From Chrysophaeum taylorii (Eukaryota > Sar > Pelagophyceae > Pelagomonadales > Pelagomonadaceae), in assembly GCA_029834535.1 (NCBI GenBank), contig JAQMWT010000466.1:62001-126000 (forward strand): a stretch of 64,000 nt of DNA, read 5' to 3'. The position numbers and the translations under genes were made by a program. Positions within the stretch are counted from its first letter, which is position 1. Every line of letters starts with the position of its first letter. The notes below the pieces were generated by a model. That model was not told where the DNA came from and searched no databases. It was given only the letters and a program-made list of their open reading frames with translations. Below, in pieces: positions 2,685 to 37,146 of the stretch.

Positions 2685-3104
2685 AATACACCTTGCCGCC
2701 GCCGCCGGCGCGCCGGGGTTAGTTAGTTACAAGTGCAGGCCAGTAAGTTCGCCAGTAAGTTCACCTGGTCCCAATCTCTAACCCCAGTAAGTTCACCTGG
2801 TCCCAGTAAGTTCACCTAGTCCCAATCTCTAACCCCAGTAAGTTCGGCGTAAGCCCACTCGTGCTCACATCCACTCACCCCACTCTCCTTCGAGCTCGTC
2901 GCTCTCACCTCCGCCAATCGAAGCTGCTTTGATCCGTACACGCCGCTCGCCTTTGCGTTCACTCTAAAAACCCCTGTAAGTTCACTTGGTCCCAGTAAGT
3001 TCACCTGGTCACTAAGTTCACCTAGTCCCAATCTCAAACCCCAGTAAGTTCACCTGGTCCCAGTAAGTTCAACTACAGTGCGCGTGTACACGCCGGGAGG
3101 GGGC

Positions 3105-3664
3105 TTATCGGTATTGCGCAGCACGTGTGGGGTAGGGTGGAGTCGTCGACTCAGAAGAGGATATCCTCGGGGTTGCCGATCGACAGAGAGCCACGTAGAG
3201 CTGGACGTGGCAGAAGACGGGCTTCGCCAAGAGGACGCCGACCTCGCTGGGCGTCTGGCCCTGGCTCTTGGTGATCGTTTGGCGTCGGCGGGCCTTACGG
3301 GATACAGGTTGGAGGAGCCTCGGTGACAACGACACGATCGATCATGTATCTGGTACCGTTGCAGTGGCCGTGCGACGGGTCGAGGTTGCGAAGACTTTAA
3401 GCTCGCGATCAAAGTCAGCATGCCGTTGGTTGTCAGGGAGTTCAAAACTCGACTCTTGAGAGCGAGGCGTCGTCTTCCGACCCAACCTAGTCGGCCGAAA
3501 AGAACTCCGACGCCTCGTCTCCGGGAAAAAAAGGCCGCGGTCATGCGCGCGTTGTCAGCATCGACAACATCGTTTCGACGGGGCGTGAGAATGGCGCGCT
3601 GAAAGAGCCGCCGCGGGTCGTGGAAATAGTCTGCGAGGTCGCCGTAGACGGCTTGGAGGATCAA
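3105..3664 (-). pseudogene. Helitron/Pif1-type helicase C-terminal fragment, copy 1
   Basis: Minus-strand reading shows three pieces typical of the C-terminal part of Pif1-like helicases carried by Helitron rolling-circle transposons, in the expected order but different frames. They are a segment with FHDPRRLFQRAILTPRRNDV, then FLNSLTTNGM, then TITKSQGQT followed by PVFCHVQLYVALCR (normally PVFSHGQLYVALSR). The region normally lying between the second and third pieces is shortened. No Rep/HUH domain or helicase N-terminus is present nearby. This is therefore a decayed fragment, not a gene. A cellular PIF1 pseudogene is possible but less likely given the repetitive context. Confidence 0.75.
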
Positions 3665-3707
3665 TGTGTGGCTCGCGGGCCCACATGATCCTTACGCTAA
3701 ATCGAGG

Positions 3708-3755
<48 letters not shown>

Positions 3756-4104
3756 TCTGTCGATTAGTAGTTAGGACAAGTGCAGGCCAGTAAGTTCACC
3801 TAGTCCCAATCTCTAACCCCAGTAAGTTCGGCGTAAACCCACTCGTGCTCACATCCACTCACCCCACTCTCCTTTGAGCTCGTCGCTCTCACCCCGCCAA
3901 TCTAAGCTGCTTTTATCCGCACACGTCGCTATCCTTTGCGTTTACTCTAAAAACCCCAGTAAGCTCACTTGGTCTCAGTAAGTTCACCTGGTCACTAAGT
4001 TCACCTAGTTCCAATCTCCAACCCCAGTAAGTTCACCTGGTTCCAGTAAGTTCACCTGGTCCCAGTAAGTTCACCTGGTCCCAGTAAGTTCACCTATAGT
4101 GCGC

Positions 4105-4685
4105 GTGTAGACGCCGGGAGGGGGCTTATCGGTATTGCGCAGCACGTGTGGGGTAGGGTGGAGTCGTCGACCCAGATGATTATATCCTCGGGGTTGCCGA
4201 TCGACAGGGAGCCACGTAGAGCTGGACGTGGCAGAAGACGGGTTTGGGCAAAAGGACGCCGACCTCGCGGGGCGTCTGGCCCTGGCTCTTGTTGATCGTT
4301 TGGCGTCGGCGGGCCTTAAGGGATACAGGTTGGAGGAGCCTCGGTGACAACGACACGATCGATCACGTATCTGGTACCGTTGCAGTGGCCGTGCGACGGG
4401 TCGAGGTTGCGAAGACATTAAGCTCGCGATCAAAGTCAGCATGCCGTTGGTCGTCAGGGAGTTCAAAACTCTACTGTAAAGAGCGAGGCGTCGTCTTCCG
4501 ACCCAACCTAGTCGGCCGAAAAGAACTCCGACGCCTCGTCTCCGGGGAAAAAAGGCCGAGGTCATGCGCACGTTGTCAGCATCGACAACATCGTTTCGAC
4601 GGGGCGAGAGAATGGCGCGTTGAAAGAGCCGCCGCGGGTCGTGGAAATAGTCTGCGAGGTCGCCGTATACGGCTTGGAGGCTCAC
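4105..4685 (-). pseudogene. Helitron/Pif1-type helicase C-terminal fragment, copy 2
   Basis: This is the same segment as in the neighbouring unit, with the same order of motifs and essentially the same frame breaks, so the fragment was already broken before the tandem duplication. The first piece reads LFQRAILSPRRNDVVDADN, and scattered substitutions separate it from copy 1. It shares the flanking 19-bp repeats and GACA tract, which shows that the whole unit was duplicated, not the helicase piece alone. Confidence 0.75.
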
Positions 4686-4833
4686 TGTCTGGCTCTCGCG
4701 CCTACCTGATCCTTACTCTCGCGCCTACCTGATCCTTACCCTAAATCGAGGGACAAACAGACAAACAGACAAACAGACAGACAGACAGACAAACATCTGT
4801 CGATTAGTAGTTAGGATTATTATCACACGATCA

Positions 4834-6531
4834 TCAGTCGAGCCTCGAGATTTTTTTGTCCGGGAGGTCGGCGTAGTAGGACTTGTCTCCCCCCTGGTAT
4901 CGGAGGGTCTCGGTGATGCGGAGCTTGCGTTGCAGGTAGCGCTGGCGCTCCATGGAGGACCAGAAGGGGATGCGGTCCCAGTCCAAGTAGGGGACGCTGA
5001 CGACGTCGAAGCCGCGGGCCTCGAGGAGGCGGCGCTTGAGCATGGTGTGGCCGAGGGGCCGCCGGGGGTCGTTGGCGCAGAAGTGGGAGGGCCCGTCGAA
5101 CTCGAGGGCCACCACGAGGGCTGAGGGGTCGGGTTTCTTGACGAGCATGTCGACGTACAGGTCGCCGTACTCGTCCCTGACCGTCGCGACCACCTCGTGC
5201 TGGGTTTTGAGCGAGGCGAGGGTATCGGCGACGGCGCGGTGTCTCGCCGAGGAGCCCTGGTGGCGGTCGTCCTCGGCACGGCGCCAGGCACGCCGCGCGC
5301 GGGCGCGGACGATCGCCGGAACGTGGCGCTCTAAGCGTCGAAAAGCCTCCGCGTCGAGCTCGACGCGGAGGGCGAGGAGAGCCTGGTGCAGTCTCCTCAA
5401 ATCCTCGCGCTCCGCGAGATTGTCGAACCGCGCCCCGCACACCAAATCGGCCGCGGCGGCGGCGTGCGCGGGGCTCGCGTGCGCGAGGACGGCGGCCGAC
5501 CAAACGACGAGCGACACCTCGAGCGGAGGAGGGGTTTCCGCGGCGGCGGCGGCGAGGGGGGCGAGGAGACGCGCGAACACAGAAATGTCGGGGGGGCGGT
5601 CGAGGAGGGCCGAGGCCCACAACATGACGGCCGCGTCGCTGAGCGCGAGGTTGTCTTTCGTCGTCGATCCGGCGAAGGCGTGCGCGCGCCGAAAAAAATC
5701 GGGCGCGTCGAACGAGGCCGTCGCGAGCGCCGACAGCGTCTGCGAGACGTCGCGGACCGTCGCGGTTTCGAAAAAGGCTCTCGTATCCAGGCGCGCCAGA
5801 ACTCCTTCGATTGCGCCGAGAGCTTGGGTCGAGACGCGCCAGTCCGTCTTGGACAACTTGGCGCAGCTCCAGACGATCGTCGCGACGTCGCGCGCCGGCG
5901 CGATGCTTTTTTTGTTGAGGCTCCCGAAAAAGGCGACGGCCGCCTCGCGCTCCCGATCCGCCAAAGGCCCAGACGCCGCCGTGGCGATCGCCCACGCGAC
6001 GTTCGCCGCCTCCTTCGGCGACTTTCCCGCGTCGAAAGCCGCGGCGGCGCGCGCCACCAGCGCCCACAACGCGACTCGAGCGACACCTGTTAAATTACCG
6101 TCCTCTTCGCGCATAAATCGCGCCGCCGCCCAGCTCGCCATCGCGAGCTCTTCGGGACGGCCCCAGCTTTTAGCGTCTTCGCCTATTCGACGCAAAACCA
6201 TCTCGGCCGTCTCCGCGCGGCCGTCGTGCTTCGTCGCGCACAACGCGAGGGCACGAGCCGTGTTTGCGAGCTGCCGGGACTTCATTTGCGGCACGACCTC
6301 CCGCGCGGCGGCCAGGAGCTCCCGCGGCGGCGACGACGCGGCGCGGTACAGCAATGCGCACACGTTGATCTCGTTCGCCTCGTGCCGCCGTTCCCAGAGC
6401 ATCTCCGTCGACCGCTTCACGCACGTCTCCCTCGACAGCTCGCGCTGGAGCGCGCGGGACGGGCCCTCTCCCGCCTGCCACGCCGATAACCCCGCGCACA
6501 CCCGCAACCACAACACCACGATCGTGATCAT
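4834..6531 (-). CDS. RAP-domain organelle RNA-binding protein
   Basis: The predicted protein has 565 residues from the first in-frame ATG at 6531; the frame is open for 11 more codons upstream without an ATG. Residues about 60-400 are alanine-rich paired helices with recurring [ALW]-A-x-A motifs, as in the helical-repeat bodies of OPR/FASTK-like proteins. The C-terminus (about 470-540) is a RAP domain: ALEFDGPSHFC, then LGHTMLKRRLLEARGF and SVPYLDWDRI. RAP proteins bind organellar RNA and act in chloroplast or mitochondrial RNA processing or translation. The start, MITIVVLWLRVCAGLSAWQ, looks like a cleavable signal peptide ending in an SA-W junction. That resembles the bipartite plastid presequence of algae with secondary plastids, where an aromatic residue follows the cleavage site; plastid targeting is inference. 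Single exon. Confidence 0.88.
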   Translation of the reverse strand: MITIVVLWLRVCAGLSAWQAGEGPSRALQRELSRETCVKRSTEMLWERRHEANEINVCALLYRAASSPPRELLAAAREVVPQMKSRQLANTARALALCATKHDGRAETAEMVLRRIGEDAKSWGRPEELAMASWAAARFMREEDGNLTGVARVALWALVARAAAAFDAGKSPKEAANVAWAIATAASGPLADREREAAVAFFGSLNKKSIAPARDVATIVWSCAKLSKTDWRVSTQALGAIEGVLARLDTRAFFETATVRDVSQTLSALATASFDAPDFFRRAHAFAGSTTKDNLALSDAAVMLWASALLDRPPDISVFARLLAPLAAAAAETPPPLEVSLVVWSAAVLAHASPAHAAAAADLVCGARFDNLAEREDLRRLHQALLALRVELDAEAFRRLERHVPAIVRARARRAWRRAEDDRHQGSSARHRAVADTLASLKTQHEVVATVRDEYGDLYVDMLVKKPDPSALVVALEFDGPSHFCANDPRRPLGHTMLKRRLLEARGFDVVSVPYLDWDRIPFWSSMERQRYLQRKLRITETLRYQGGDKSYYADLPDKKISRLD

Positions 6532-6764
6532 ATGATCTTTTTGGGGGGATATTTGAACACCCAACCCCTAGTAGGAATCATTACTGTACTTTGTGGATAG
6601 ATAAGATAGATACCCCCTTCTCACCAGTCGACCTTCAAAAACAAAACCCTTGTTGCTTGCAGGTGTTGCACGTACGGTTGGTTCGGTTCTACTACGAGGT
6701 ATGGTGTCGCCGACTACTGTCATCATCGTCTGGGGCAAGTCCGACCTTGGGGTGATTTCGTTGT

Positions 6765-8681
6765 TCACTCGTCGCGGCCATCCAAGCATTGGATTTCGAC
6801 CGCGTTGGTCTTCGACCCTGTGTCTTTGGCCTCGGAGTCCTCCTTTATGGGCGCCAGCTGGACTTCGTCCTCGATCAGCGGGTTGGTGAGCGGCATAAAG
6901 AGCGGCTCGCCGGCGCGCTCTTTTTGTACCATGTAACAGACGGCAATGGTGAGAACGACGGCCAGGACGGCGGCGGCAGCGAAGAGGGCGCCGTAGAGGG
7001 TCTCGCTCTTGGTGTTCTTCTTCTTAGTCGTTTGCGAGTCCGGGCAGTTGAGGAGGAGGGCCTTCTCTAAGTCGTAGTCGAATTTAGGCACGAGGTCGAC
7101 GTCGCAATAGGGCGCCGACTCCGGAAAGAGCTGGGAGACCGGCTGCTCGATTCCACCGAGTTCGCGCTCGATGATGGGTCCTTTATTGACGGCGTGGACG
7201 ACGACCTTTCGAACGTCGATGTCGTCGATGTTCATGATGATGACCGTGTTTTGCGTTGGCTCGCTGTGAAGGACGTCGAAATCTGCGGAATATTGCAAGT
7301 CCTGAATGTCGCTCGGCTCCAAGACGCCAGCGCCAATAACGGCATCGAGCTCGCCGGAGAGGAGCGCCTCCTCGACTCGCGCGTGCGTCTCGAAGTAGAG
7401 GACTCGGACAAACTCGATATCGGGCTCGCCGCCCCAATATTCGGGGTTGCTTCCGAAAACGACCTCGCGGTCCAAGTCGTCGTCGTCGTCGTCGACGGTG
7501 CGCGAGACGAAGCGGAACGGGCCCGTCCCTGAAGGCGCGAGGGTACCGACGCACGTCACCGTCGAGCCATCGTCGCCGGTGATGCTTCCCCACGACGCCG
7601 GGCAGGAGTTGTGCGTCGCGGGTGAAGTGTAGATGCCGTGTGTGAAGGCCGCGGGCGACAGAATGCGCATTGGCCGGATGTAGGTGAGTTCCTGGAGGAG
7701 CGGGTAGTAGGGCTCGGTCGTTTCGAGGACGAAGTCGTCGCCGTCGCAGTACCAGTTAGCGAGGGCGCCTGGTAGGCCGTACCATCCGTGCCAGTCGGGA
7801 CCGCGCAACGGAGGCGCGAATACGTGGTCGAAGTTGAGCTCGACCACGGTGCAGTTGAACGCGGAGCCGTCGTGGAAGACGACGCCCTCGCGAAGCGAGA
7901 AGCGAAAGGTCTCGCCGCCGTCGTCGCGGATCTCGGTTGTCCAGGTCTTGGCGAGCGAGGCCTCAATCCTGCCCGACGGTCCGTATTTGACGAGGCCCTC
8001 GTAGATCCAATTGTTGGAGAAGAACTCGTTCGGCCGATAGCCGTGCGGATCGAGTGGCCCGACGCTTTTAAACAAGCCCGTTTGCGCACCGGGGGCGACC
8101 GTCACGTTCTTGCTCCCCTCCACGACGCGGACGCTCGCGATGGGATAGTCGAACTGCTGGGGGCCCGAGACGTAGCCTTCGAGGCGCCGACCGACGACCG
8201 ATGGAATCCGCTTGCCCCAAAGTGGCAGGTGGATAACCTCCGCGTGGATCGCCGACAAGATTTCCGTCCACGTCTCTTGACGCTCGACAGGGTCGACCTC
8301 GCTCGAGACGTTGGCGACCCACGATGCGAACGTCTTTGGATCGAGCGGCGGCTCGTGCGTCTGTAGGACGCTGTAGTGGGCCTCGTCCGGCGTCGTCCAC
8401 GAGGCCACGTAACTGTGCGGATCGTACGGCGCGCCCCATGTCTCTGAAAAAACGAGGTCGTAGTCGCCCGTCACCATCGCCGTGTTGAACTCTTCCTTCT
8501 CCAAAAAGCGCGACCGAGCCGTCAAGCCCACTTCCAGCAAGGCCGCCCGAATGTCGTCCTCGATGGCTCGATGCGACGCCTCGCCATCCAACACCACAAA
8601 ATCGAGCTCCACGGCGTTGCACTGCCCAGAGTCGTCGGCCCTCGCCGCCGCAGCCAACAACACCAGCCGCGACAAGAACAT
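6765..8681 (-). CDS. Circularly permuted family 5 solute-binding protein with C-terminal membrane anchor
   Basis: The protein has 638 residues from the ATG at 8681, giving a clean signal peptide (MFLSRLVLLAAAARA). Residues about 24-184 match the C-terminal part of NikA/OppA-type SBP_bac_5 proteins, including FSETWGAPYDPHSYVASW (NikA has a WGAPYDPH block near its C-terminus). Residues about 192-548 match the N-terminal and middle part: SVGPLDPHGYRPNEFFSN, IYEGLVKYGPSGRIEASLAK, FRFSLREGVVFHDGSAFNC, YYPLLQEL, SGTGPF and YWGG. The order of the two parts is the reverse of the bacterial family. A TM helix (about 561-585) and a cytoplasmic tail of about 50 residues follow. The predicted topology is a ligand-binding ectodomain with a single-pass anchor. 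No ABC permease or ATPase gene is nearby. Ligand unknown; nickel or short peptides are family guesses. Confidence 0.85.
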   Translation of the reverse strand: MFLSRLVLLAAAARADDSGQCNAVELDFVVLDGEASHRAIEDDIRAALLEVGLTARSRFLEKEEFNTAMVTGDYDLVFSETWGAPYDPHSYVASWTTPDEAHYSVLQTHEPPLDPKTFASWVANVSSEVDPVERQETWTEILSAIHAEVIHLPLWGKRIPSVVGRRLEGYVSGPQQFDYPIASVRVVEGSKNVTVAPGAQTGLFKSVGPLDPHGYRPNEFFSNNWIYEGLVKYGPSGRIEASLAKTWTTEIRDDGGETFRFSLREGVVFHDGSAFNCTVVELNFDHVFAPPLRGPDWHGWYGLPGALANWYCDGDDFVLETTEPYYPLLQELTYIRPMRILSPAAFTHGIYTSPATHNSCPASWGSITGDDGSTVTCVGTLAPSGTGPFRFVSRTVDDDDDDLDREVVFGSNPEYWGGEPDIEFVRVLYFETHARVEEALLSGELDAVIGAGVLEPSDIQDLQYSADFDVLHSEPTQNTVIIMNIDDIDVRKVVVHAVNKGPIIERELGGIEQPVSQLFPESAPYCDVDLVPKFDYDLEKALLLNCPDSQTTKKKNTKSETLYGALFAAAAVLAVVLTIAVCYMVQKERAGEPLFMPLTNPLIEDEVQLAPIKEDSEAKDTGSKTNAVEIQCLDGRDE

Positions 8682-8991
8682 TATCTTCAAAACCAAGAGA
8701 TTCGCAGGCCACACGTGCTGGTGCTATGTCTGATCTGGAGCTATGTCTGACCTGTTGTGGTGTTTCTTTCTTCAGTTATTGTTAGAGAAGAAAAGAAGAA
8801 GAAGTGTTCTAGGAATGTTTTTGAGGATGTTTTTTCTCAGTTCCAAAACACACTTGATAACGTCAAGTTGGGTTCGTAAGGAGGACAGAGATGAACGAGA
8901 TTTGCCGGGGTCGGACTGTCGAGCGGGTTAGTAGTTAAGAGTCATAGGGGAATTAATTAAAGCTTTGGAAACAAACCCTTCGCTCCTCACG
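8682..8991. promoter_or_regulatory. Divergent intergenic region
   Basis: These 310 bp separate the start codons of the solute-binding protein (-) and the MYND methyltransferase-like gene (+). The sequence is more AT-rich than both flanks, with TTTCTTTCTTCAG-type pyrimidine runs and a GTTAGTAGTTAAG stretch. It must hold both promoters, but I see no recognisable TATA box or named motif. Confidence 0.5.
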
Positions 8992-10467
8992 ATGGAGGCC
9001 GTCTTGGCCGAGCTCGGCGCTCTGAAGCGGAAGCGGCGGGAGCCCTCCAACGAGGCGACGTCGAAGCGACGACGGCGACGGCCTCGCGCGGGCGATGGGG
9101 TACGCGGGGTGCTCGCGAGCGTTACGCGCGCCCGCGCAGCTGCGATGCGGCGCGATGCCGATGCGGCGGTCGCGCACTGCCGGGAGGCCGCGCGGTGGGC
9201 GACACGGCTGTGCGAGGCTGCCATCGGGGACAACGATGCGGCCGATGTGCGGCGGCTCGCGAGCGTGGCCATCCGCGCCATGAAGGAGCTCGGCACGCGA
9301 AGCCGAGCGGTCGACGCGCTGTCCGCGGTCGATGCCACTTATCACCGCCTCCGGTACTTCGCATTGGGTCGCGGGATCGAGGTGCCGTGCCCCCGCGAGT
9401 ACTTCCGCCGCCTCCTCGACGCCAAAGCCCCTTTACCCGATGCCCTGGACGCTTCGGAACGCGAAGCGCTCGCGACGACGAGAACCGAGATCGCTGCCGC
9501 GAGTCAGAAATTCCTCGGCCGCCGCCGCCACGCGATCCCTCCCTGGACGATCCGCAAGACCTCCTGGAACCCGTTGTTGCGGCTCTACCGGTCGCGGTGG
9601 CGCGAGTCGGCATGGCTCCTGAGCGACGACGGCCCGTGGCGACGAGCGCCTACGGAGCCCCTCGTACCAAACGCCGAGGCGACCCCCTTGAAGCGCCGCG
9701 ACCCCGTCGCCCCCAAAACCCTGCACGCGTGGCGTCGCCTGCGCGACGACATCGCGCGCGAGTACTCGTTTGCGGTCCCCTCGGAACAAGCCCTCGAAGC
9801 TCTTTCTCGCTTTCAGAGAGTCGTAGAAGTCGGCGCGGGCACCGGCTACTGGGCCCGTTGCCTCCGCGAGCGCCGCGTCGAGGTGAGCGCCTCCGACCCC
9901 GACAGGGCCGAATACCACGGCGCCTACTCGACCTGGACCCACGTCGAGACGGCCTCCGCCGACGCCGTTCTCGCCCGACTGGCCCGCCGCGGCGACGATA
10001 TCCAAAAAATCGCCTTGCTCGTGTGCTACCCGCCACCCGACTCCGCACTCCTCGGAACTCTCGCGACGACCTTCGCCAAGATATCGCGCCCGGAGGACCG
10101 CCTCGCGCTCGTCGCCGAGTGGCGCGGCGATGCGGCCTCCTCTGCCTGCTTCCGAGCCCTCGCCGACGCCTATACCCTCGACGACAAAATCCCCCTCCCA
10201 AACTGGGGCGACACATCGGCCCATCTAACGCTCTGGCGGACCGGCGGCGGCCCCTGCCCCCTCGACACCTGCTCCGCCTGCGCCCGACACCGACCTCTGC
10301 GCCGCTGCCGCCTCACCTGCGACCTCCAATTTTGCTCGTCGGCTTGCGCGGCCACCCAGGCTTCGCTCCACGAGGACCTCGTCGCCCTCAAGTTGTTCTC
10401 CACGCACTGGGGGGTCCCCCCGGCCTTCAACGACTCGGCCCTCTTCGCCCGGCTTGGTTGTTGCTGA
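8992..10467 (+). CDS. Methyltransferase-like protein with C-terminal MYND-type zinc finger
   Basis: The predicted protein has 491 residues. The start chosen is ATG 8992 (CACGATGGAGG context). The N-terminus has basic clusters (KRKRR, KRRRRRP) that could be nuclear localisation signals, then a helical region. Around residue 275 is VVEVGAGTGYWARCLRE, a class I SAM-methyltransferase motif I, followed by an acidic strand end (VSASDPDRAEY) and a region with CYPPPDS, resembling the catalytic loop of N-methyltransferases. The end (about 425-462) holds CSAC, CRLTC, FCSSAC and a terminal His, which fits a MYND finger with its last Cys not obvious. MYND fingers bind proline-rich partners. A protein methyltransferase is the likely role; the substrate is unknown. 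The gene looks intact and intronless. Confidence 0.75.
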   Translation: MEAVLAELGALKRKRREPSNEATSKRRRRRPRAGDGVRGVLASVTRARAAAMRRDADAAVAHCREAARWATRLCEAAIGDNDAADVRRLASVAIRAMKELGTRSRAVDALSAVDATYHRLRYFALGRGIEVPCPREYFRRLLDAKAPLPDALDASEREALATTRTEIAAASQKFLGRRRHAIPPWTIRKTSWNPLLRLYRSRWRESAWLLSDDGPWRRAPTEPLVPNAEATPLKRRDPVAPKTLHAWRRLRDDIAREYSFAVPSEQALEALSRFQRVVEVGAGTGYWARCLRERRVEVSASDPDRAEYHGAYSTWTHVETASADAVLARLARRGDDIQKIALLVCYPPPDSALLGTLATTFAKISRPEDRLALVAEWRGDAASSACFRALADAYTLDDKIPLPNWGDTSAHLTLWRTGGGPCPLDTCSACARHRPLRRCRLTCDLQFCSSACAATQASLHEDLVALKLFSTHWGVPPAFNDSALFARLGCC

Positions 10468-10550
10468 AGACAGACCGACCACCCCGCGTAGCTTCGATCT
10501 ACGCGCCGCGCCGCGCGTGACCGAGACTTTTTTTGTGGAGAACTGGTTCT

Positions 10551-10551
10551 T

Positions 10552-10594
<43 letters not shown>

Positions 10595-10597
10595 GGA
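10551..10597. repeat. (GATA)n microsatellite
   Basis: About ten perfect GATA units followed by GATGGATGGATA, about 80 bp after the stop of the MYND gene. The following bases to about 10977 show no coding signal. Confidence 0.95.
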
Positions 10598-10977
10598 TGG
10601 ATAAGCGGGATGGGCACCACCGACTCGAGGCGCCAAACGACCGCCCGAGGGCCGGTTTCGAGCGAGCGACGCGAAGGCACGACTCTTACGCGCGAGAAGG
10701 GAATGCAAACCTTCGCGAATATTAGCCATCCTAGTTGCGCCCGAGCCCATCGGTCCCGCGTTCGTCCTTTGGCGACGACGTTGCCCTCCTTTAGTCACCC
10801 CGCCAGACCTAACTAAGTTCCCCCCACAACCTTCCCGCGGCAGCGAACCAGGCTATTTTCTTATCAGACCACACACCCGGAAAGAGTCTCTGAGCGACAC
10901 TCTCCCTGTTTACGCGCGCTCCCTTATTTCTCGTGGTCGCTCCCTCCTCGTGTTCCCGCGGGAGGGCGTGTTGCAAG

Positions 10978-12210
10978 TCACGTCTCAGTAGTACGGCCAA
11001 TGTTATGGAGCAGGAGATTCTCGAGCGCATCCATGTAAATTATCCAAGGGCCAGCCTGGATCGCCGCTTCGAACTCCGAGGCTTCGTAGTCCTCGCGCAT
11101 CTCGGCTAGAAGAATGGCGTGGTTGTCGTGCGCATCCAGGTAGCAGTTCGGATCGGCTGCTTTCGCGAATTTGTACTCAATTTGTGGCGTTGCACACCTT
11201 TCGTAGAAACAGGAGAATAAAATTTCGCGCAACCGAGTGCTTCGGATCAACTGCAATTGCTGCTTTGTACTCGCGCTCCGCGCCATCATAGTCCTTGCGC
11301 ACCTTGCTGGGCAAATATCCTAGTTGTATTACGCCATCGCGTAATGCGGATCCAGAGGTATACGTCGCTCGTAGGCCTTGATTCGTTCTTCGGCTGAACC
11401 AGCCGTCTTTCCGGGGCGAAAAATCCGATCGCGAACCATGCCGCGACGTTCGACGTGTAATTTGCCACGGCCGCGTGAAAAGATTTGAGCGCCTCATTTT
11501 TCAAGACGACACGACGCCATGCCAGCGGCCACCAGCGCCTCGGCCAACTGTCGAACGTCCTCCGGCGCCTCTTGGATCGACGTTAGCCGCTGCGTCATCG
11601 CCGGCGAGTTGATCGACGGACGATAAAAGAAGCTGGCTCCCGGGCCGTTCCGGTTGGGATGAGGCCAAGCGCTTCGCCAGGACTCGGAACACGCTCTTTC
11701 CGTCATGTCAGACTGCTCCGATTGTTCGAGCCTGGAGAGGATGCAGTCGACCTTGGCGGCATTTTCGTCTATCTTGGCTCGCTAGCGATGCTGTTGGTGT
11801 CGGAGCCGAGCGCCTTTCGTAAAAGTTCGACCGACGTGATCGACTGCTTCCTAGCGCTCTGCGTGATATTCCGAAAAGCGACCCTCGCCGTCAGCTTCAT
11901 AAAGTCGTTCTCGACCATGTCACACACAGTTCGATGAGCACGCGGAGCGCAACGATGACCGCTTATACGATTTCGAGGCCGGCACTCCCGGACGGTTCGC
12001 CCGAGCCGTCATATTCTCGACCCGGCGCTCGTAACCCGCGGGGAAGCTCACAATCGACTCAGCCCTCTCTAGTTTGACAGCGACGAGCTCACGATATCTC
12101 TCGGAGATGGGCTCGACGAACTTGCCGACAACGGGAAGTTTGTTCGCGGCCTCGATCTTGACGTCGCATGCCACCGGAGCAGCCCGCTTCGCCGTGACCA
12201 ATATTGACAA
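10978..12210 (-). pseudogene. Decayed tetratricopeptide-repeat (TPR) protein gene
   Basis: Minus-strand reading gives short open pieces separated by stops and frame changes. Three carry TPR-like text: DYDGAEREYKAAIAVDPKH, then FAKAADPNCYLDAHDNHAI with LLAEMREDYEASEFEAAI, and upstream KSFHAAVANYTSNVAAWFAI. The spacing fits 34-residue repeats with the usual A/G-x-x-x-Y and DP pattern. The upstream pieces (12210-11500) include a segment with LPVVGKFVEPISERYRELVA that I do not recognise; it may be the N-terminal part of the same gene. At least four breaks separate the pieces and no canonical introns restore them, so I call it a pseudogene. A multi-exon gene with non-canonical introns cannot be excluded. 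Confidence 0.55.
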
Positions 12211-28683: not shown

Positions 28684-28778
28684 GGGCGACTCGTTTCTAC
28701 GGAACTCCGCGCGAGAGGGTTAAGCGATGACGAAATTTTCGACGTAGGACAGGGATCCCGCCGCCGATCCTCCGAGCG
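28684..28778. promoter_or_regulatory. Short bidirectional promoter region
   Basis: Only 95 bp separate the start codons of the TPR gene (-) and the megasynthase (+), so both core promoters and both 5' leaders must fit here or extend into coding sequence. I see no TATA box. Confidence 0.55.
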
Positions 28779-31700
28779 ATGATGGCTAGCCGATCGAGGC
28801 CGCGCGATGGGTTTACGCCTCCCGCGTGGTGGGCGCCGTGGTCCCGCGAGGAGTCGTTGATGGCGCAAGCGTGGGCGACCGTCGCGGCCTACGGGGACGC
28901 CCCATTCATGACGTGGCTCGACGACCGCGGCCGCGAGGCGGAGACCTTGAGCTTCGAGGGGTTGTGGGCGGAGAGCGCCGAGATCGCGTATCGGATGAAA
29001 CACCAGTGGGGTGTCGAGACGGGGGATCGCGTCTTACTCTGCTACATGCCGGGGATGCAGTTCATGGCGGCCTACTGGGCTTGCCTGCGCCTCCGGGCGA
29101 TCGCCGTGCCGACGTACCCTCCCGACCCAAACAAGCTCGAGATCGGCCTCAAGAAGCTTGGTCTCGTCAAAATCTCCTGCGACGCCAAGCTGTGTCTCAC
29201 GGAGCGGGTCATCGAGCAGATGCGAATCGCTCTCAGTCTGACCCACTCGTGGCCCAAGGGCCTCGCGTGGCGGAGGACCGACGACGCCGCGTCGTCCAAG
29301 AAGAAGAAGAAGACCACCACCACCACCACCTCTAGGGCGCCGCGCGAGGCGGTGGACGCTCCGGGCGAGGGGTCCGCGGTGGCCTTCTTGCAGTACACGA
29401 GCGGGTCGACCGGAGACCCTAAGGGAGTGATGTTGACCTTCGACAACATCTGGCACAACTGCAACGAAATGTACCTTCCCGCTCAAGTCCGACACCTCAG
29501 AAATCGGGGCGTCGAGCACGCTTGGGGCGGCGAGCCGCGCATCGTCGGGTGCTCGTGGTTGCCGCAGTTCCACGACACGGGCCTCGTGTTGTGCATCGTG
29601 GCCCCCTTCGTGGCGGGGTACCGGATGATCAATTTCTCCCCGTTGACGTTTTTGCGGTCGCCCCTCCTCTGGATGGACGCGCTGACCAAGTTTGGCGTGC
29701 ACTGGTCGGCGGCGCCCGACTTCTCGTACGAGCTGTGCGTACGCCGTCTCGCCGACCTCGACAAGGAGCCGACCTTTGACCTCTCGACGGTCCAGCAGCT
29801 GGCCTGCGGCGCGGGGGAGAGGTGCCGGCCCGCGCAACTCTCGCGCTTTTCGGAAACGTTTTCGCGGTTCGGCTTGCGACGCGACGTCTTCGTCCCAAAT
29901 TACGGCCTCGCCGAGCACGTCGTCGCGACGTGCGGGTGCGCGCAGGGAATTAAGCTCTCCGAAAAGCGTCCCGACCTCGCGTGTTGCGGCGAAGACTTTC
30001 AGTGCGATCTCAGGATCGTGTGCCCCGCCACCAGAGTGGAAAAGTCGTTGGGCGAATCGGGCGAGATATGGATATCCTCGCCGTCGGTCGCCAAAGGATA
30101 TTGGGGCAAACCTGATCTCACAAAAGAGATGTTTCTGGCGACGCTTTCGGACGGAGCGACGCGACACGCTTACCTCCGCACGGGCGACGAGGGGTACTTC
30201 GAGGTGGGGCCGCTCGGCCCGCGTCTCTTCATCTGCGGCCGCCTCAAGGACCTCATCATTGTCGGCGGCAAAAACTTCTATCCCGAGGACGTCGAGGTCG
30301 CCGCTCAAGAGGCCTCACACCACATTCGTCCGGGCTGCGTCGCCGCCTTCGCCGCGGTCGACGGCGGTACCGACACCTCGGACGAGGCCGTGACCTGCGT
30401 CTTCGAGCTCAGGACCAAGGCTCTCTCGGAGCTCGACGATGATTCCAAGCTCGCGCGCCTCGCCGACGCCGTGCGCCGCGCCGTCGGCGTTACATCCGGC
30501 ATCCTCCCTGCTCGCATCGTCATCATCGCCGAGCGCACCATCCCGAAAACCACGTCGGGTAAGGTCCAGCGCCGCCAGACCCGAGCCAAGCTCGACGCGC
30601 ACCAGCTGACGTGCCTCCACGACACGGCAGGCCTGCACCCGATGACCTCGAAAAGGACGCCCCTCTTCGGCGCCGACAGCTGGATCTCAAAGTCCATCGA
30701 CACGGCCCTCACCTTCTTCGGCGGCTCTTCTTCTTCTTCTTCTTCTTCGACGAAAAAGAAGGTCCTCCAGCACCAGGACAACGGCCGCGCCCCGCCCAAA
30801 GAGCGAGAGGACCACGCGCCGCGTTCGACAGCCGACGACGACGTTGCCAAAACCACCGAGGCGCTCGTCGCGACGATCCGCGAGGTCTCCAACGGCCCTT
30901 GCTCGGCGACCACCGCCTTCCACGAGCTCGGCCTCTCTTCGCGCCAGACCGTCGAGCTCCTTCGCCGCGTCGAGCGCGAAATCGACGTCGAACTCCCGCC
31001 GACCCTCGTTTTCTCCTGCCCGACGGTCGCTGCGCTCGCCGCCGAAATCTGCCGGATTCGCCGCGGCGACGACGACGACGACGTCGTCGTCAAGGTCGTC
31101 GAGGCGCCGCCGACCTACAGTTCGCGCGCCGTCGTGCTCGAGGTTTCGAGCGTCGCGGCTCGACTCCCCGGAAACTGCGACGACGTCGCGCGCGGCCTCC
31201 GCGACCTCGTGACCGCGCGCGTCTCCGCCGCCTCGACCGTGCCCTTTGCGCGATGGGACCTCGACGCCGTCGACCTCCGCAGCGCGCCGGCCCGCGCGCG
31301 AGCCTCCTACGGCGCCTTTTGTGCCGGCCCCCGAGGCTTCGAGCCGGCGGCCTTCGGCATGCGCCTCGCGGAGGCCGCGGCCCTCGACCCGCAGCAGCGC
31401 CTCTTCCTCGAGACTTCGTACGATGCGCTCCTCGCCGCCGGCTACCAACGCCGCAAGGATGATACTCTGGTCGACGCGACGTTACCCGCGACCTTTCCCA
31501 ACCGAGCGACCCTCGCCCCTCGCTTCCTCGCGGGCGCCAACGTCGCCGTCTGCCTCGGCATGATGAACATGGACGCGGCCTTATCTCTCAAACCCGAGGA
31601 CGTCGGCCCCCACGACCTCACCGGCAACGGTTACGCCAGCGCCGGCTCCCGCTTGTCCTTTCTCTTCGACATGCACGGTCCCTGCACCGTCGTCGACACC

Positions 31701-34700
31701 GCTTGCTCGGCATCCCTCGTCGCCGCCCACGCGGCCGCCCGTTTCCTTGAGGCCGAAGAGGCCGACGCAGCCCTCTTCGCCGGTGCGTTATTCTCCTTCA
31801 TTTCGATCTGTCTTTCCATTACTTTGTGTCTCGCCGGGGACGACTGTCCTTGACGATTGTGCGACCGAACTCGATGCGGCCGCCCGTATTATCGACGAAA
31901 GAAAAAACCGCCCGAATTGTCTGTCTCTCTTGTCTTGTCTTGTCTGGTCTGTCTGTCAGTCATTAACGGGGCGTACTTTCTTCGAGAATCGCGACATGTC
32001 CCGTGCATGCCTTTTTTTTTTATTCAACGCGTACGAACGGTAGCCGGAGACGATTGTTGATGAGGACGACGCCTGTCCTCTCCGTCGTCGCCGCGGTCGG
32101 TCGCGTCGTCGACGTGCTTGGCCGGCCAGTTGCCCGATGTGTGATGTGATGGTCACACCCCCAAAGTTGCCGGTCGCACCTGGCTCGAGCGATGTCGCGA
32201 TCACGCTGCTTCGAGTCGCGGCGACCCGCGCTCTTTGGTATCGACGACACGTTCTTTTCAACCGAAGCTCCGGCAGAAGTCGAAACCATGTTCGCCAAAC
32301 AACCACACTATCAAGTTGATGTCGGTTAAGTCGTATTTTTGATGGCGGTGTCGATACCTATGCCTCCTCAGAAGCCGTGGTCCACAAGCAAGCAACCGAT
32401 TTCTCTCGGCGTTTTGGATTCACGCAATCTCTGTGACCCGCTGTCGTCTATGGCGCCATCGAACGCTCGCGTTTTCGATGATGGCGAGGGAACGTCTCGA
32501 CGATGACAATACTGTCCGCATCGAGTAGAATTGTTACGGCGAAAATCGTGTCAACTTTAGACGGGTCTTCCGCAACGACTATTTCTTGTTTTTTTTTTGT
32601 TGGGAGTGCCCTCCGCCGACGCATCTTTCGAGCTTTATTTCAACCGGGAAATTGGCGCCTCCTCCACCTTGGCCGCGCGACACTATGGCTCGTATGGGGA
32701 TGTCTGTTGTGTTGCTGGTTGTTGTCATGCTACTCTTTTTAGTTCTGAGCCATAGGAACCTCGCTCATGCTCGCCCCGAGCTTCGTCCACGTGGGCGCTG
32801 CCGTCGCCGCTATGACGAGCGAGACCGGGCGCTGCCACACCTTCGACGCGGCGGCTGATGGCTATTGCCGTGGGGAAGGCTGCGGCGTCGTCATGCTTGG
32901 CATTCGACGACCGGATATGACTTCCCTTAAAGGCGGGGTCGCGGCCACAGGCTTTGCGGTCAAGCACAACGGGCAGAGCGCGACATTCACTGCGCTCAAC
33001 TCTATCTCGCAGACTCGACTCATGGAGGCATGCAAGGGTGCGCGATTGACCCTTGCCGTCGAGGCACACGGCACCGGTACCAAGCTCGGGGATCCAATCG
33101 AAATCGCGGGCCTCGCCAACTTTAAGAAGGCGACGACGGCGCCGAGAACTATACTGAACGCCGTCAAGGCCAACCTCGGACACACCGAACCCACCGCCGG
33201 TGCTGCCGGCTACCTCGCGAGCCTTATCGTCGCCGTCGCCAACGAGCCCCAGCCAAACGCTGCGCTTCGAACCGCCAATCCCGTTGCCAGGATCGAAAAA
33301 CTCGACTGCCTCGCGCCGCCAACGGACACCGTTGTAGCCGGCGCGACGTCCTCACCGCGAGCTTTCTCGGTCGGGGTGAGCTCGTTTGGCTACAGTGGGA
33401 TCATCGCCCATGCGGTCCTTAAAGCAGTAGCTTGCATCGACGACGACGATAACGACCTTTCACCGACTCTCGACGTACGCGACGGCCGCTTTATTCTTGG
33501 CGACGAGGCCTCGGTGAAAGAAGATCTCGTCGTGCGCCGTCGCCGCAGCCCAGGCGAAGTGCTCGAGGCGCGAGCTTTGAGCAAACGGCTCATGACAAAA
33601 CAACGCGGTGTCCTCGATGCGAGGCACCCCTGGTTGCAGCACCGTCCAAGCGCCGACGGCGTTGTCGTTTTCGATATCAAGCGCATGTCAGCAGGAGGTT
33701 GTGACGATCCGTCGAATTCATCCTGTCTGTTGGAGATCGCTCTTGCTTCGGCGCATGCCACGGGCGTTAATGTTCTCGTCGATGTCTCAATCACCGCATC
33801 ACCGACGTCGTCGAAAGGACGCAGGAAAGTACCAACGCGGTCCGTCATCGATGATGACGAGCTTCGACTTGAAAATAGCGACGGAGAGGCCGTGCTTGTC
33901 GCAACACTAGCGTCATCCTATGAGCCCCTCAGGGGTATGCGCCGCTGCGTGACAAAGGGACGGCCACCTGTGGTGTCGTCGATATACGTGTGCGAAGAGC
34001 TTGGCGCTGCCTGGCGCCTTGGCAAGAATGAGGCTCGCGGTCTTGTCGTCAAACGCACTGGTTCGACGTTACGTGCGTCTTCCCTCGAAGCTGCGAGGCG
34101 ACTTACGGGCGTCTTCCTGTCGCGGGACGTAGAATGGGTGCACGTCGACGAAGTCCGCCAGCTCGCTGACGACGGCGACTCAACACGAGCTTGGGCCCGT
34201 GTGGCTAGGATCGGCGACTCGTCTAAGAACGATGACGCTATCGTCGTGGATTGCGATGTCATGGTGTCGAATCGTACCCTCGCACTGCGTGGGGCGTCGG
34301 CGCGATGTCACAAAGTCCCTGCCGTGGTTGATGAGGTCGCTGTCTACGAAGTTGGCTTGGCCTGGAAGAAATTTGAAACGGCTTCGAGGCGAGGCGATCT
34401 AGTGACCATTCTCATGCGTGTTGCTCAAAGTCTCAACAAACAACATGGAATTGCGCAGCCCGTCAAACTCCTGGACAGCGACTTGGCACGCGTTTCGCGC
34501 GATTCGCACGTGTTGATCGTTGCAGGTGATGATGAACAAGTCGGACACGCTTGGTCCTCTGCACTCTCACTGTTGCCGGTGTTGAGTCGTGAGCGTTCAC
34601 TGCTGCTTCCAAGATACTTGCGCCAGGCGGGATTTCGGCAGGTCGACATCGTCTCCTCGTCACCACCGATGCGTATGCTTGAGCCTCAGCTTGTGGTGGC

Positions 34701-37146
34701 AGACGCCAACGCATACACCCAGCTTCGTACATCGGACCAGTTACTGCATACGTTCACGACGGTCGAGGTGACTGCTGGACACCTGCTGCCACTCGCCGCT
34801 CGTTGGTTTGGCGGCGCAGTGGACGCCCTGCTTGTGAACGCCGCTCGCATTAGCACGCACGCCGCGACAGAGATGTGCAAGCTAAGGACCAAGCCGTTTA
34901 TCCTCGTCGGAAATGGTGACATCCCGATGGCCCCCTTCTATGCTGACAAAAGCGAAGAGCTTCGAATTGTTTTGTGCGGTGAGCGGAAGATTCAGGATCC
35001 GTCCCGAATTTCAACAACTGTGCTCGCTGGAGCCTCACCACACCTCACTGGCTTTGCACAGCGGTGTCGACTCGACGGCAGTCTCGCAGTGGCACAGGTA
35101 GGCCCCTTGTCATCACTCAAGCGCGGGGGTCTCGTCAGTACCTGTGTGCGTGGGGCGACCATGATCGCCTGGGCTGCGGCGGTTTTGACTCCGAGCATTG
35201 AAATTCGCTATTTTCTGCTCCCCGCTGGTTCGGCACCAACGACGAGCCCCGCAACAGCAACATCCCTGTCATCTTCCAGGCGCCGACGTAGAGAACAGAA
35301 GGGCAAGAAGAAGAGCGTCCGGAGCATTGTCGCCGAGGTTGTCACCCGACTCGTGGGACCAGAGGCGATTTCAACGTCATTCGCTGACATCGGCATCGAT
35401 TCACTCCAAGGGACAGAGATTGCTCGCGAGCTGAGCGAACGCCTTGGTCGTGAGGTCCCGCCGACGCTTCTTTTAGAAGCCCAAGGAATCGAAGACCTGG
35501 CGACTCTTCTCGGTGCCGATGAGACTAATGGTGCTGCGGTTGTTGAAATGGACGAGGTCGTGACTGACCAACCGACTCCTCAAGCGGAAACGTCCCTCGA
35601 AGTCGGAGTGGTGCACGGTGACAGCGTGCCTTCAGTTGAGGCGCAATCAGCGTCGATGTTACTACCGGAGACTGTTAAATGCGCGCAATCGACTCCCGAC
35701 CAAGAACTCTTGTTCTGGATGACGAAGCGGCAAAACCGCTTTGCGTGGCTTCCTGTGACGGCGATTGGCGAACTGGTTGGCGATGTCGACATCGCCGCGC
35801 TTGAACGTTCCGTTCACGCAGTTGTCATGCGTCACGAAGCTCTGCGCTCCCGGCTCGTTCGCGTCGGTCTGGGTGACAATGATAGCACGTTGTTCGTGGT
35901 CGACGACGACAAACGGCGTTTTCCTCAACTTGAAGTCCGTGAAGCATGTAGCGCTGGCGAGGCGCGCAACGAAGTGCAGACGTTTCACAACGAGTACGAC
36001 AACGACGCCTTCGCGCCGTTGTTGCCGGTTCGGGCCCTCCTTGTCTGCTATCCTCGGGAAGTCGCGCACCACAATGGAGTGCGGGCCACCAACGCGCTGC
36101 TTTACGTTTCGACTAATCACGCCGTGTCCGATGGCTGGTCGCAGCAGCTCCTCTACAACGACTTGGTTGCAGCGTACAACAATGATGGTGTCTTCCCAAA
36201 GGACAGACCCAAGCCAGCCCGAAGATATTGTGAATTCCTCGCGTGGCACAACGACCAAGTGGCGAGGCTGGCCGATGATCCCAAGGTCCAGGCGCATATT
36301 CGACAATACGCGGCTGCCACGCGGTTGCCGTCGCGCTGGCCGACTGTCTGTGGCACTGACAAAGTTGTCGACACACTCTTCGAGACTGGTAGCCTTCTCC
36401 ACACCGACGAGGTCGCCATCATTAGTGCTGCGAGTGTCGCAGCTGTGAAAGCGAGGCTGCGAGGAGATGTCGCAGACTTTGGCCGCGCGTCGCTTCCGTC
36501 CGTGCTACTCGCGGCCTACGTTACTGCCCTTGGTGATGCGCAGCTAGGCCGCTCTGTTGTGCTCCAGTACTCGCACACCGGGCGTATCGGGCAGCCTGAT
36601 CTTGCAGAGACTTACGGTCAGCTCGCTACGGACATGAACGTTATCGTTCCTGCCTCGGCCGAACCTGAGCAACAGCAACTTGGTGCCTTCATCTCACGCG
36701 TGCACAACGCTGTGGTGAACAGTCTGAGTCTTGGATCGGTTGTCCCCTACTCTCTCGCCTACCGTGCGTCCGACGGGCGCCACCCGCTGCCGCCCCAGTT
36801 CAACTGGTACGACCGCTACAGCGATATCCCACGATGGCGCGGACTGGAGGCGACAGAGATCGCTATTGATCAGACACAGATGCGCACCCGGACCTTCAAC
36901 TTGGGTGCGATCTACCTCATGTGCCTCGTACAGAGCGACGGCTGCCTGATGCTGAAGATTTTTTTTAACGAGCACGTCTACGCTCGCGAGACGATACAGC
37001 TCGCGCTTGAGAGAATCAAGTCCTTCCTCGATCTCCTTTCAAGCCAAACCCCGGCAAGTTGTGTCTTTGATCTTTTTTCGCGCTGCGCCTTGACTTGTCC
37101 TTATTCTATGTTTACTCAGGCCACTCCGATTTTCGCTTGGGGGTGA
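28779..37146 (+). CDS. FAAL-ACP-KS-(DH-like)-ACP-condensation hybrid megasynthase
   Basis: Exons 28779-31782 and 32756-37146 encode 2,464 residues. Domain order by residue: fatty acyl-AMP ligase 1-620 (YTSGSTGDPKGVML, WLPQFHDTGLVL, RLKDLIIVGGKNFYPEDVE); ACP about 680-765 with Ser in LGLSS; ketosynthase about 785-1225 with Cys in DTACSAS and the His of EAHGTGT and NLGHTE; a degenerate dehydratase-like region about 1285-1525; an unrecognised region to about 1830; ACP about 1840-1905 with Ser in GIDSL; condensation domain about 1980-2435 with NHAVSDG in place of HHxxxDG. The module has no acyltransferase, so extender units must be loaded in trans. No ketoreductase, thioesterase or adenylation domain is seen. 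Likely role: activate a fatty acid, extend it, and release it by amide or ester formation. Exon 2 is visibly less GC-rich than exon 1. Linkers hold in-frame poly-Lys/Thr and poly-Ser runs. Confidence 0.88.
31783..32755 (+). other. 973-nt intron inside the ketosynthase domain
   Basis: Donor G/GTGCGT and acceptor CCATAG/GA join FAG to TSLMLAPSFV, exactly the KS sequence expected after the active-site Cys segment (families read AGG-x-N-x-MLSP). The phase is 1 and the frame continues. The intron holds TCTTG/TCTG runs near 31920-31957 and T-rich tracts, with no gene visible. It is far longer than the other introns here. Confidence 0.85.

Follow-up and report, generated by a model that had tools for sequence, protein, structure and literature searches.

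A circularly permuted relative of the binding protein NikA, with a predicted C-terminal membrane anchor, in the alga Chrysophaeum taylorii

What is a binding protein of the bacterial NikA type doing in the genome of an alga, and are its two parts really joined in the opposite order? These questions are raised by an open reading frame (ORF) in a 64,000-nucleotide stretch of Chrysophaeum taylorii DNA (GenBank assembly GCA_029834535.1, contig JAQMWT010000466.1, positions 62,001 to 126,000 of the forward strand), and this whole stretch is called the window in what follows. The ORF occupies positions 6765..8681 of the minus strand, with its ATG at 8681 and its stop ending at 6765, and encodes 638 amino acids plus the stop in a single open frame. 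An initial annotation of the window had given the same coordinates, and had read the product as a true circular permutation of a bacterial binding protein, anchored in the membrane of a eukaryote. As judged from sequence alignments, the algal protein is indeed a true circular permutant of a NikA-type binding protein, and its new ends carry a predicted signal peptide and a predicted transmembrane helix. The eukaryotic host is borne out too, and it is photosynthetic, as the assembly, with 70.8 Mb in 697 contigs, contains 84 matches to light-harvesting proteins.

The swapped order is most directly seen in a BLASTP comparison with NikA of Escherichia coli, the reference being translated from an unannotated stretch (L013) of an E. 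coli record. Residues 206-556 of the algal protein align with positions 35-358 of the NikA precursor (E 1e-38, 28% identity), and residues 16-154 with positions 356-489 (E 1e-15, 27% identity); the two pieces adjoin in NikA at about 356-358, and their order is reversed in the alga, which is the outcome that the initial annotation had expected from aligning the two segments separately. A phmmer search of the PDB gives the same register: the top match is NikA of Brucella (4oer, E 2.4e-56), on which residues 206-349 fall at 11-148, residues 376-539 at 150-313 and residues 16-161 at 332-472. Taken together, the two segments amount to about one NikA, with each NikA region present once and no long part doubled. 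The first segment (residues 16-189, positions 8115..8636, minus strand as for all features of this gene) corresponds to the C-terminal part of NikA, about 332-502 of the mature protein, and the second (residues 190-552, 7026..8114) to its N-terminal and middle part, about 2-328. The cut falls in the loop that follows the YD..KALL helix, at about 318-333 of mature NikA, while at the seam (residues 184-192, 8106..8132) the old C-terminus runs directly into the old N-terminus, without a linker, in the sequence alignment. Range 189-552 of a structure model aligns with NikA 2-328; this alignment was placed by means of BLAST-defined bacterial fragment positions and is thus not independent of the permutation, whereas the sequence evidence is. 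Against 85 bacterial proteins, the best scores of the first and second segments are 95.1 and 174.0 bits, and a chance match is excluded because shuffled versions of the segments (40 each) stay far below these values, with maxima of 27.3 and 26.6 bits.

The new N-terminus is a putative signal peptide (residues 1-15, MFLSRLVLLAAAARA, 8637..8681), fused at the permutation point; it has a hydrophobic start, is followed by DDSGQC, and is similar in a second genomic copy of the gene described below. Its cleavage site was inferred without a signal-peptide program. Near the other end, a transmembrane helix is predicted at residues 563-585 (6927..6995), where a hydropathy peak (residues 564-582, mean Kyte-Doolittle 2.6) coincides with a helix that spans residues 559-589 in the structure model. 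The C-terminal anchor of the initial annotation, type I by prediction, is accordingly upheld. Three N-glycosylation sequons occur in the protein, within the domain predicted to face outward.

Which binding protein was permuted is indicated by profile searches. The Pfam model SBP_bac_5 (PF00496) is matched with 114.6 bits, well above its cut-off of 32.4, and the only other Pfam match is a below-cut-off one over the transmembrane helix. In the NCBIfam ranking the nickel_nikA model comes first (243.7 bits) and CntA second (162.7), and the top plasmid matches carry a nikA annotation. The score against the NikA equivalog TIGR02294, 243.7 bits in two stretches, lies below the curated cut-off of 393, and permutation and divergence may both lower it. 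CntA is a binding protein for staphylopine-metal complexes, of normal segment order, that forms part of an ATP-binding cassette (ABC) importer and has a lipoprotein anchor; in all three respects it differs from the window protein, and NCBIfam itself names CntA a lipoprotein. Compared with NikA, the protein is homologous over the whole length and differs in its swapped segments, its membrane anchor and tail, a glutamate in place of a metal ligand, a score under the equivalog cut-off, and an assembly in which a NikB/C-type permease was not detected. The label NikA/OppA-type given earlier missed the specific kinship with NikA and CntA, and a precedent in diatoms was missed as well.

This precedent is ZCRP-B, the Zn/Co Responsive Protein B of diatoms, which is homologous to NikA, with 30.5% identity to the E. 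coli protein (7e-49), and increases under zinc or cobalt shortage (Kellogg et al. 2022, PMC9010474). As described in the accessible parts of that paper, it resides at the cell membrane, with a single predicted transmembrane helix near the N-terminus and most of the protein outside; it has putative homologues in diatoms, dinoflagellates and prymnesiophytes; and it is proposed either to concentrate metal at the surface for ZIP transporters or to act through endocytosis. In the diatom proteomes of that study, homologues of NikB and NikC were not detected. The window protein resembles ZCRP-B in belonging to a eukaryotic alga, in being a NikA homologue, and in having a single predicted transmembrane helix and, by prediction, an outward-facing domain; that a NikB/C-type permease was not detected is a further point in common. 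It differs in that the predicted helix of ZCRP-B is near the N-terminus, whereas its own predicted helix lies C-terminally, at 563-585 of 638. This comparison is one of description, not of sequence, and the main text of PMC9010474, as far as it was available, does not mention a permuted order. The BLAST values of ZCRP-B are silent on its segment order, since one strong piece is what a permuted protein would give as well, as the 28% and 1e-38 of the algal protein illustrate. In the searched literature, ZCRP-B was not met beyond PMC9010474, and the accessible text of a pelagophyte paper (PMC13284251) mentions neither ZCRP nor nickel. A membrane-anchored eukaryotic NikA is therefore already known, and what may be new is the swapped order with the C-terminal anchor.

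With moderate confidence, we read the protein as a circularly permuted, C-terminally anchored relative of NikA and CntA, most likely a topological variant of ZCRP-B, that captures a divalent metal or a metal chelate at the cell surface. The signal peptide would send the protein into the secretory pathway, and the bilobed domain would come to stand outside the cell, on one transmembrane helix that leaves a former mid-chain loop rather than a native terminus. There it would close on a divalent metal or a metal chelate (Zn, Co or Ni), and the cargo might then be released near ZIP-type transporters or be taken up by endocytosis, as proposed for ZCRP-B. Next to the new ends stand two cysteines, Cys21 and Cys546, and at a guess they might be linked by a disulfide that closes the cut.

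How far the binding pocket agrees with such a role can be judged from the 12 residues that are named around nickel chelates in E. coli NikA (PMC11091072, accessible parts). Half of them are kept, namely Tyr22, Trp100, Arg137, Trp398, Tyr402 and Arg97, the last next to a four-residue insertion. Arg137, which according to the same source hydrogen-bonds a carboxylate of the metal chelate, corresponds to Arg336 of the alga (7674..7676) and is an arginine in all 85 bacterial rows of the alignment, and the motif WGAPYDPH (residues 82-89, NikA 398-405, 8415..8438) retains W398, Y402, D403 and H405 of NikA. The other six weigh against the capture of a NikA-like metal chelate: Thr23 is changed to Arg, Met27 to Phe, Tyr382 to Asn, Arg386 to Val, Ser415 to Asp and His416 to Glu. 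The last two changes fall in DEAH (residues 99-102, 8376..8387), which by alignment takes the place of S415-H416-A417-D418, so that the metal ligand His416 becomes Glu100, with His102 two residues on. In the His416 column the 85 bacterial rows have 73 His, 11 Tyr, one Phe and no Glu; positions 23, 382, 386 and 415 vary among these rows too. Seven pocket positions are uniform in at least 72 of the 85 rows, and the alga keeps five of them, the exceptions being Met27 and His416. Both algal copies are identical at all 12 positions. From this pattern we infer a pocket that would still accept a chelate, with an altered coordination of the metal.

The same changes, at His416 and at five further pocket residues, also count in favor of the next most probable reading, in which the same permuted family 5 fold would serve as a surface scavenger or receptor for another ligand, such as a peptide, an opine, heme or a metal-free organic chelator. 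Family 5 proteins bind many ligands, and weaker matches include dipeptide-, heme-, agrocinopine- and oligopeptide-binding proteins. However, NikA and CntA head the list of sequence matches, the plasmid records that match best are annotated as nikA, and WGAPYDPH, the pocket Arg137 and the two tryptophans are kept, so we consider another ligand possible, if rather doubtful.

If the protein captures a metal, to what would it pass it on? The initial annotation had noted that no transporter partners are nearby, and this holds not only for the neighbourhood but for the whole assembly: in a six-frame search, made exon by exon, PF00528 (BPD_transp_1, the NikB/C-type permease) has no match, a search that was positive in 14 of 14 control genomes and that an intron-broken gene could escape. 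A role as subunit of an ABC importer was rejected on this ground. The same type of search found no match to NicO transporters across the assembly, with only 5 of 14 control genomes positive and UreH-type transporters not searched for, and a NicO-type partner was dropped. Nickel users and candidate acceptors do exist in this alga, because the assembly contains urease, 19 matches to the CobW family (a few partial) and 10 to ZIP transporters (two in one frame, one below the cut-off). The many COG0523/CobW matches suggest an elaborate handling of zinc and cobalt; ZCRP-A of diatoms is itself a member of the COG0523/CobW family.

The undetected permease is at the same time one of two points in favor of a signalling receptor, whose ectodomain would sense a metal or nutrient and whose 53-residue tail would relay the signal. 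The second point comes from the putative cytoplasmic tail (residues 586-638 plus the stop, 6765..6926), of which the membrane-proximal part, KERAGEPLFMPLTNPLIEDEVQLAP, is identical between both copies. Against it, a Pfam scan finds no domain in the 53-residue tail, residues 591-638 have a predicted local distance difference test (pLDDT) below 50 in the structure model, and so short a tail fits trafficking too; signalling is thus regarded as unlikely, and capture of a metal or chelate at the surface continues to be preferred.

The second copy allows the gene itself to be checked. The assembly has one other SBP_bac_5 match (C578:88682-90601), 91% identical over nearly its full length, and this second gene copy (L003:3683-5614, plus strand) has the same architecture, with the segment order, signal-peptide-like start, anchor and tail of the window copy. 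Because it shows the same order, an assembly artefact is rejected. Both copies are intact and under purifying selection: over 636 codons the nonsynonymous divergence (dN) is 0.050 and the synonymous divergence (dS) 0.178, giving a dN/dS of 0.28, with 0.25 in the first segment (codons 16-190) and 0.21 in the second, and 16% of the synonymous sites differ. Values of dN/dS above 1, based on few changes, are seen in the 38 codons of the anchor region and in the 15 codons of the signal peptide; this agrees with parts in which hydrophobicity is the main requirement. At the DNA level, as compared between window 4001-12000 and 9.5 kb of L003, the similarity extends no further than the gene itself, some 75 bp of upstream sequence and a repeat elsewhere; directly upstream of the two start codons the alignment is full of indels. 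Since both copies are single open frames, copying by way of RNA may have taken place. As for the repeat, window 2803-3751 and 3787-4795 form a direct tandem repeat of roughly 1 kb, with pieces 90-98% identical, and a 754 bp piece of it recurs at 94.8% near the second gene copy (L003:8017-8770), and is therefore dispersed.

The weakest alternative holds that there is no true permutation, because outer exons of a normal tandem fusion were overlooked or the assembly is in error. It can appeal to the introns that algal genes may have and to an order read from genomic DNA alone, yet it is highly improbable, given two loci with the same order and 16% of synonymous sites different, an ectodomain of one NikA length, ends sealed by signal peptide and transmembrane helix, and four flanks, of 3-4 kb each, in which nothing convincing was left of additional halves (best E 0.085 and 0.21). 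The scenario that the initial annotation had named as its refutation, with flanking exons encoding extra lobes, is disfavoured by the one-NikA ectodomain, the signal-peptide-like start in both copies, the upstream indels and these same flanks.

Do bacterial relatives share the permuted order? A set of 86 was examined, consisting of the best 80 of 332 from a scan of genome contigs and of six plasmid loci, and the permuted order occurs in none of the 86. In 85 of them both segments lie in one frame, the N-terminal part before the C-terminal part and no stop between, while the remaining one (L061) is cut by the contig end, with its N-terminal part not in the sequence. At the protein level both segments are found at E <=1e-5 in 82 of 85, and the C-terminal part follows the N-terminal part in all 82. 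A single high-scoring segment pair crosses the seam among the 85 proteins, in L078 from its residue 8; this candidate was rejected as a permuted relative, since the pair runs from the end of the signal peptide into the normal N-terminus, and the order is normal. A 130-residue query that spans the junction matched 31 of 72,556 plasmid records, none of which has one place covering at least 80% of it. Scan patterns made from the two algal copies alone found no relatives in genome or viral contigs, patterns from a mixed alignment found the bacterial ones, and the viral contigs gave no relatives with patterns from either segment. In a phage collection 6 of 50,697 records matched, none of them annotated. 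H41, which is an unverified faecal clone, ranks first, with 28% identity over 78% of the query; it is the one record of the six whose order was examined, and that order is normal. FastTree trees of the separate segments give the alga a long branch and different nearest rows, Oceanospirillum (L017) for the first segment and Geomicrobium (L077) for the second, and no donor is drawn from these trees.

Tandem duplication followed by loss of the outer halves is the textbook route to a circular permutation. The initial annotation had suggested this origin, and it is not established here, the flanks bearing no trace of it (best E 0.085). As to why the permutation was kept, the native ends of NikA presumably belong to lobe I, with the cut site of the algal permutant falling in lobe II. 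Lobe II is described as the home of His416 and also of the helix adjacent to Tyr382 (PMC11091072, accessible parts). It is a tentative idea, for which we would claim little confidence, that the permutation was selected for giving the tether a new place, at the C-terminus and on the lobe opposite to the one that bears the native ends; a captured subunit of a bacterial nickel importer would then have become a C-terminally anchored, tail-bearing endocytic metal receptor and founded a topologically novel class of family 5 binding proteins, with ZCRP-B as its unpermuted, N-anchored cousin.

A comparable case is TpMglB-2 (Tp0684), a natural circular permutant that is tethered to the membrane, still binds its ligand and changes shape, and whose authors suggest that its segment order may be adapted to the anchor (PMC4990184, accessible parts). 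It shares with the window protein the permutation and, by prediction for the alga, the tethering of a ligand-binding domain; it differs in being a bacterial glucose-binding lipoprotein of Cluster B fold and of another sequence family that very probably belongs to an ABC transporter, and the window protein, which matches SBP_bac_5 and NikA-type models, stands outside the MglB-type (Cluster B) family. In a search with most subscription journals outside its range, TpMglB-2 was the sole clear case of a natural permuted substrate-binding protein, and no permuted NikA or OppA was found in print among the literature matches listed. Capture at the surface of algae is itself familiar from diatoms, in which FBP1, resembling bacterial siderophore-binding proteins such as FhuD (PMC6876252), and ISIP2a, a phytotransferrin (PMC9010474), capture metal or metal chelates. 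In the accessible parts of these papers both are likewise algal surface proteins for a metal or metal chelate, with endocytic internalisation proposed; they differ in belonging to FhuD-like and phytotransferrin families and in serving iron rather than Ni, Zn or Co, and permutation is not mentioned.

The locus thus offers a eukaryotic example of a permuted binding protein that is duplicated and maintained by selection, for which the change of anchor is a plausible reason, and it would add another alga to those with metal capture of the ZCRP-B type. A prediction that existing transcriptomes can check follows from it: NikA homologues of algae could be sorted into permuted and normal ones, and their order compared with the end that bears the anchor. 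More permuted proteins may be overlooked because profile searches split them into two weaker matches.

The third-position guanine-plus-cytosine (GC) content of the gene is 0.82, and the GC content of the whole window is 0.60. Also encoded in the window are PRMT5, a RAP-domain protein, a diacylglycerol acyltransferase and frames of the AMP-binding/ketosynthase type. The latter (28731-31853 and 32749-37146, plus strand) show AMP-binding, acyl-carrier and ketosynthase domains, the second frame taking up the ketosynthase profile at the point where the first ends; together they form a polyketide-synthase-like gene, probably interrupted by an intron at about 31.85-32.75 kb. Finally, a divergent frame at 8935-10467 (plus strand) has a methyltransferase match below the cut-off (24.1 bits, cut-off 27) and a Cys-rich C-terminus that, by eye, resembles a MYND finger.
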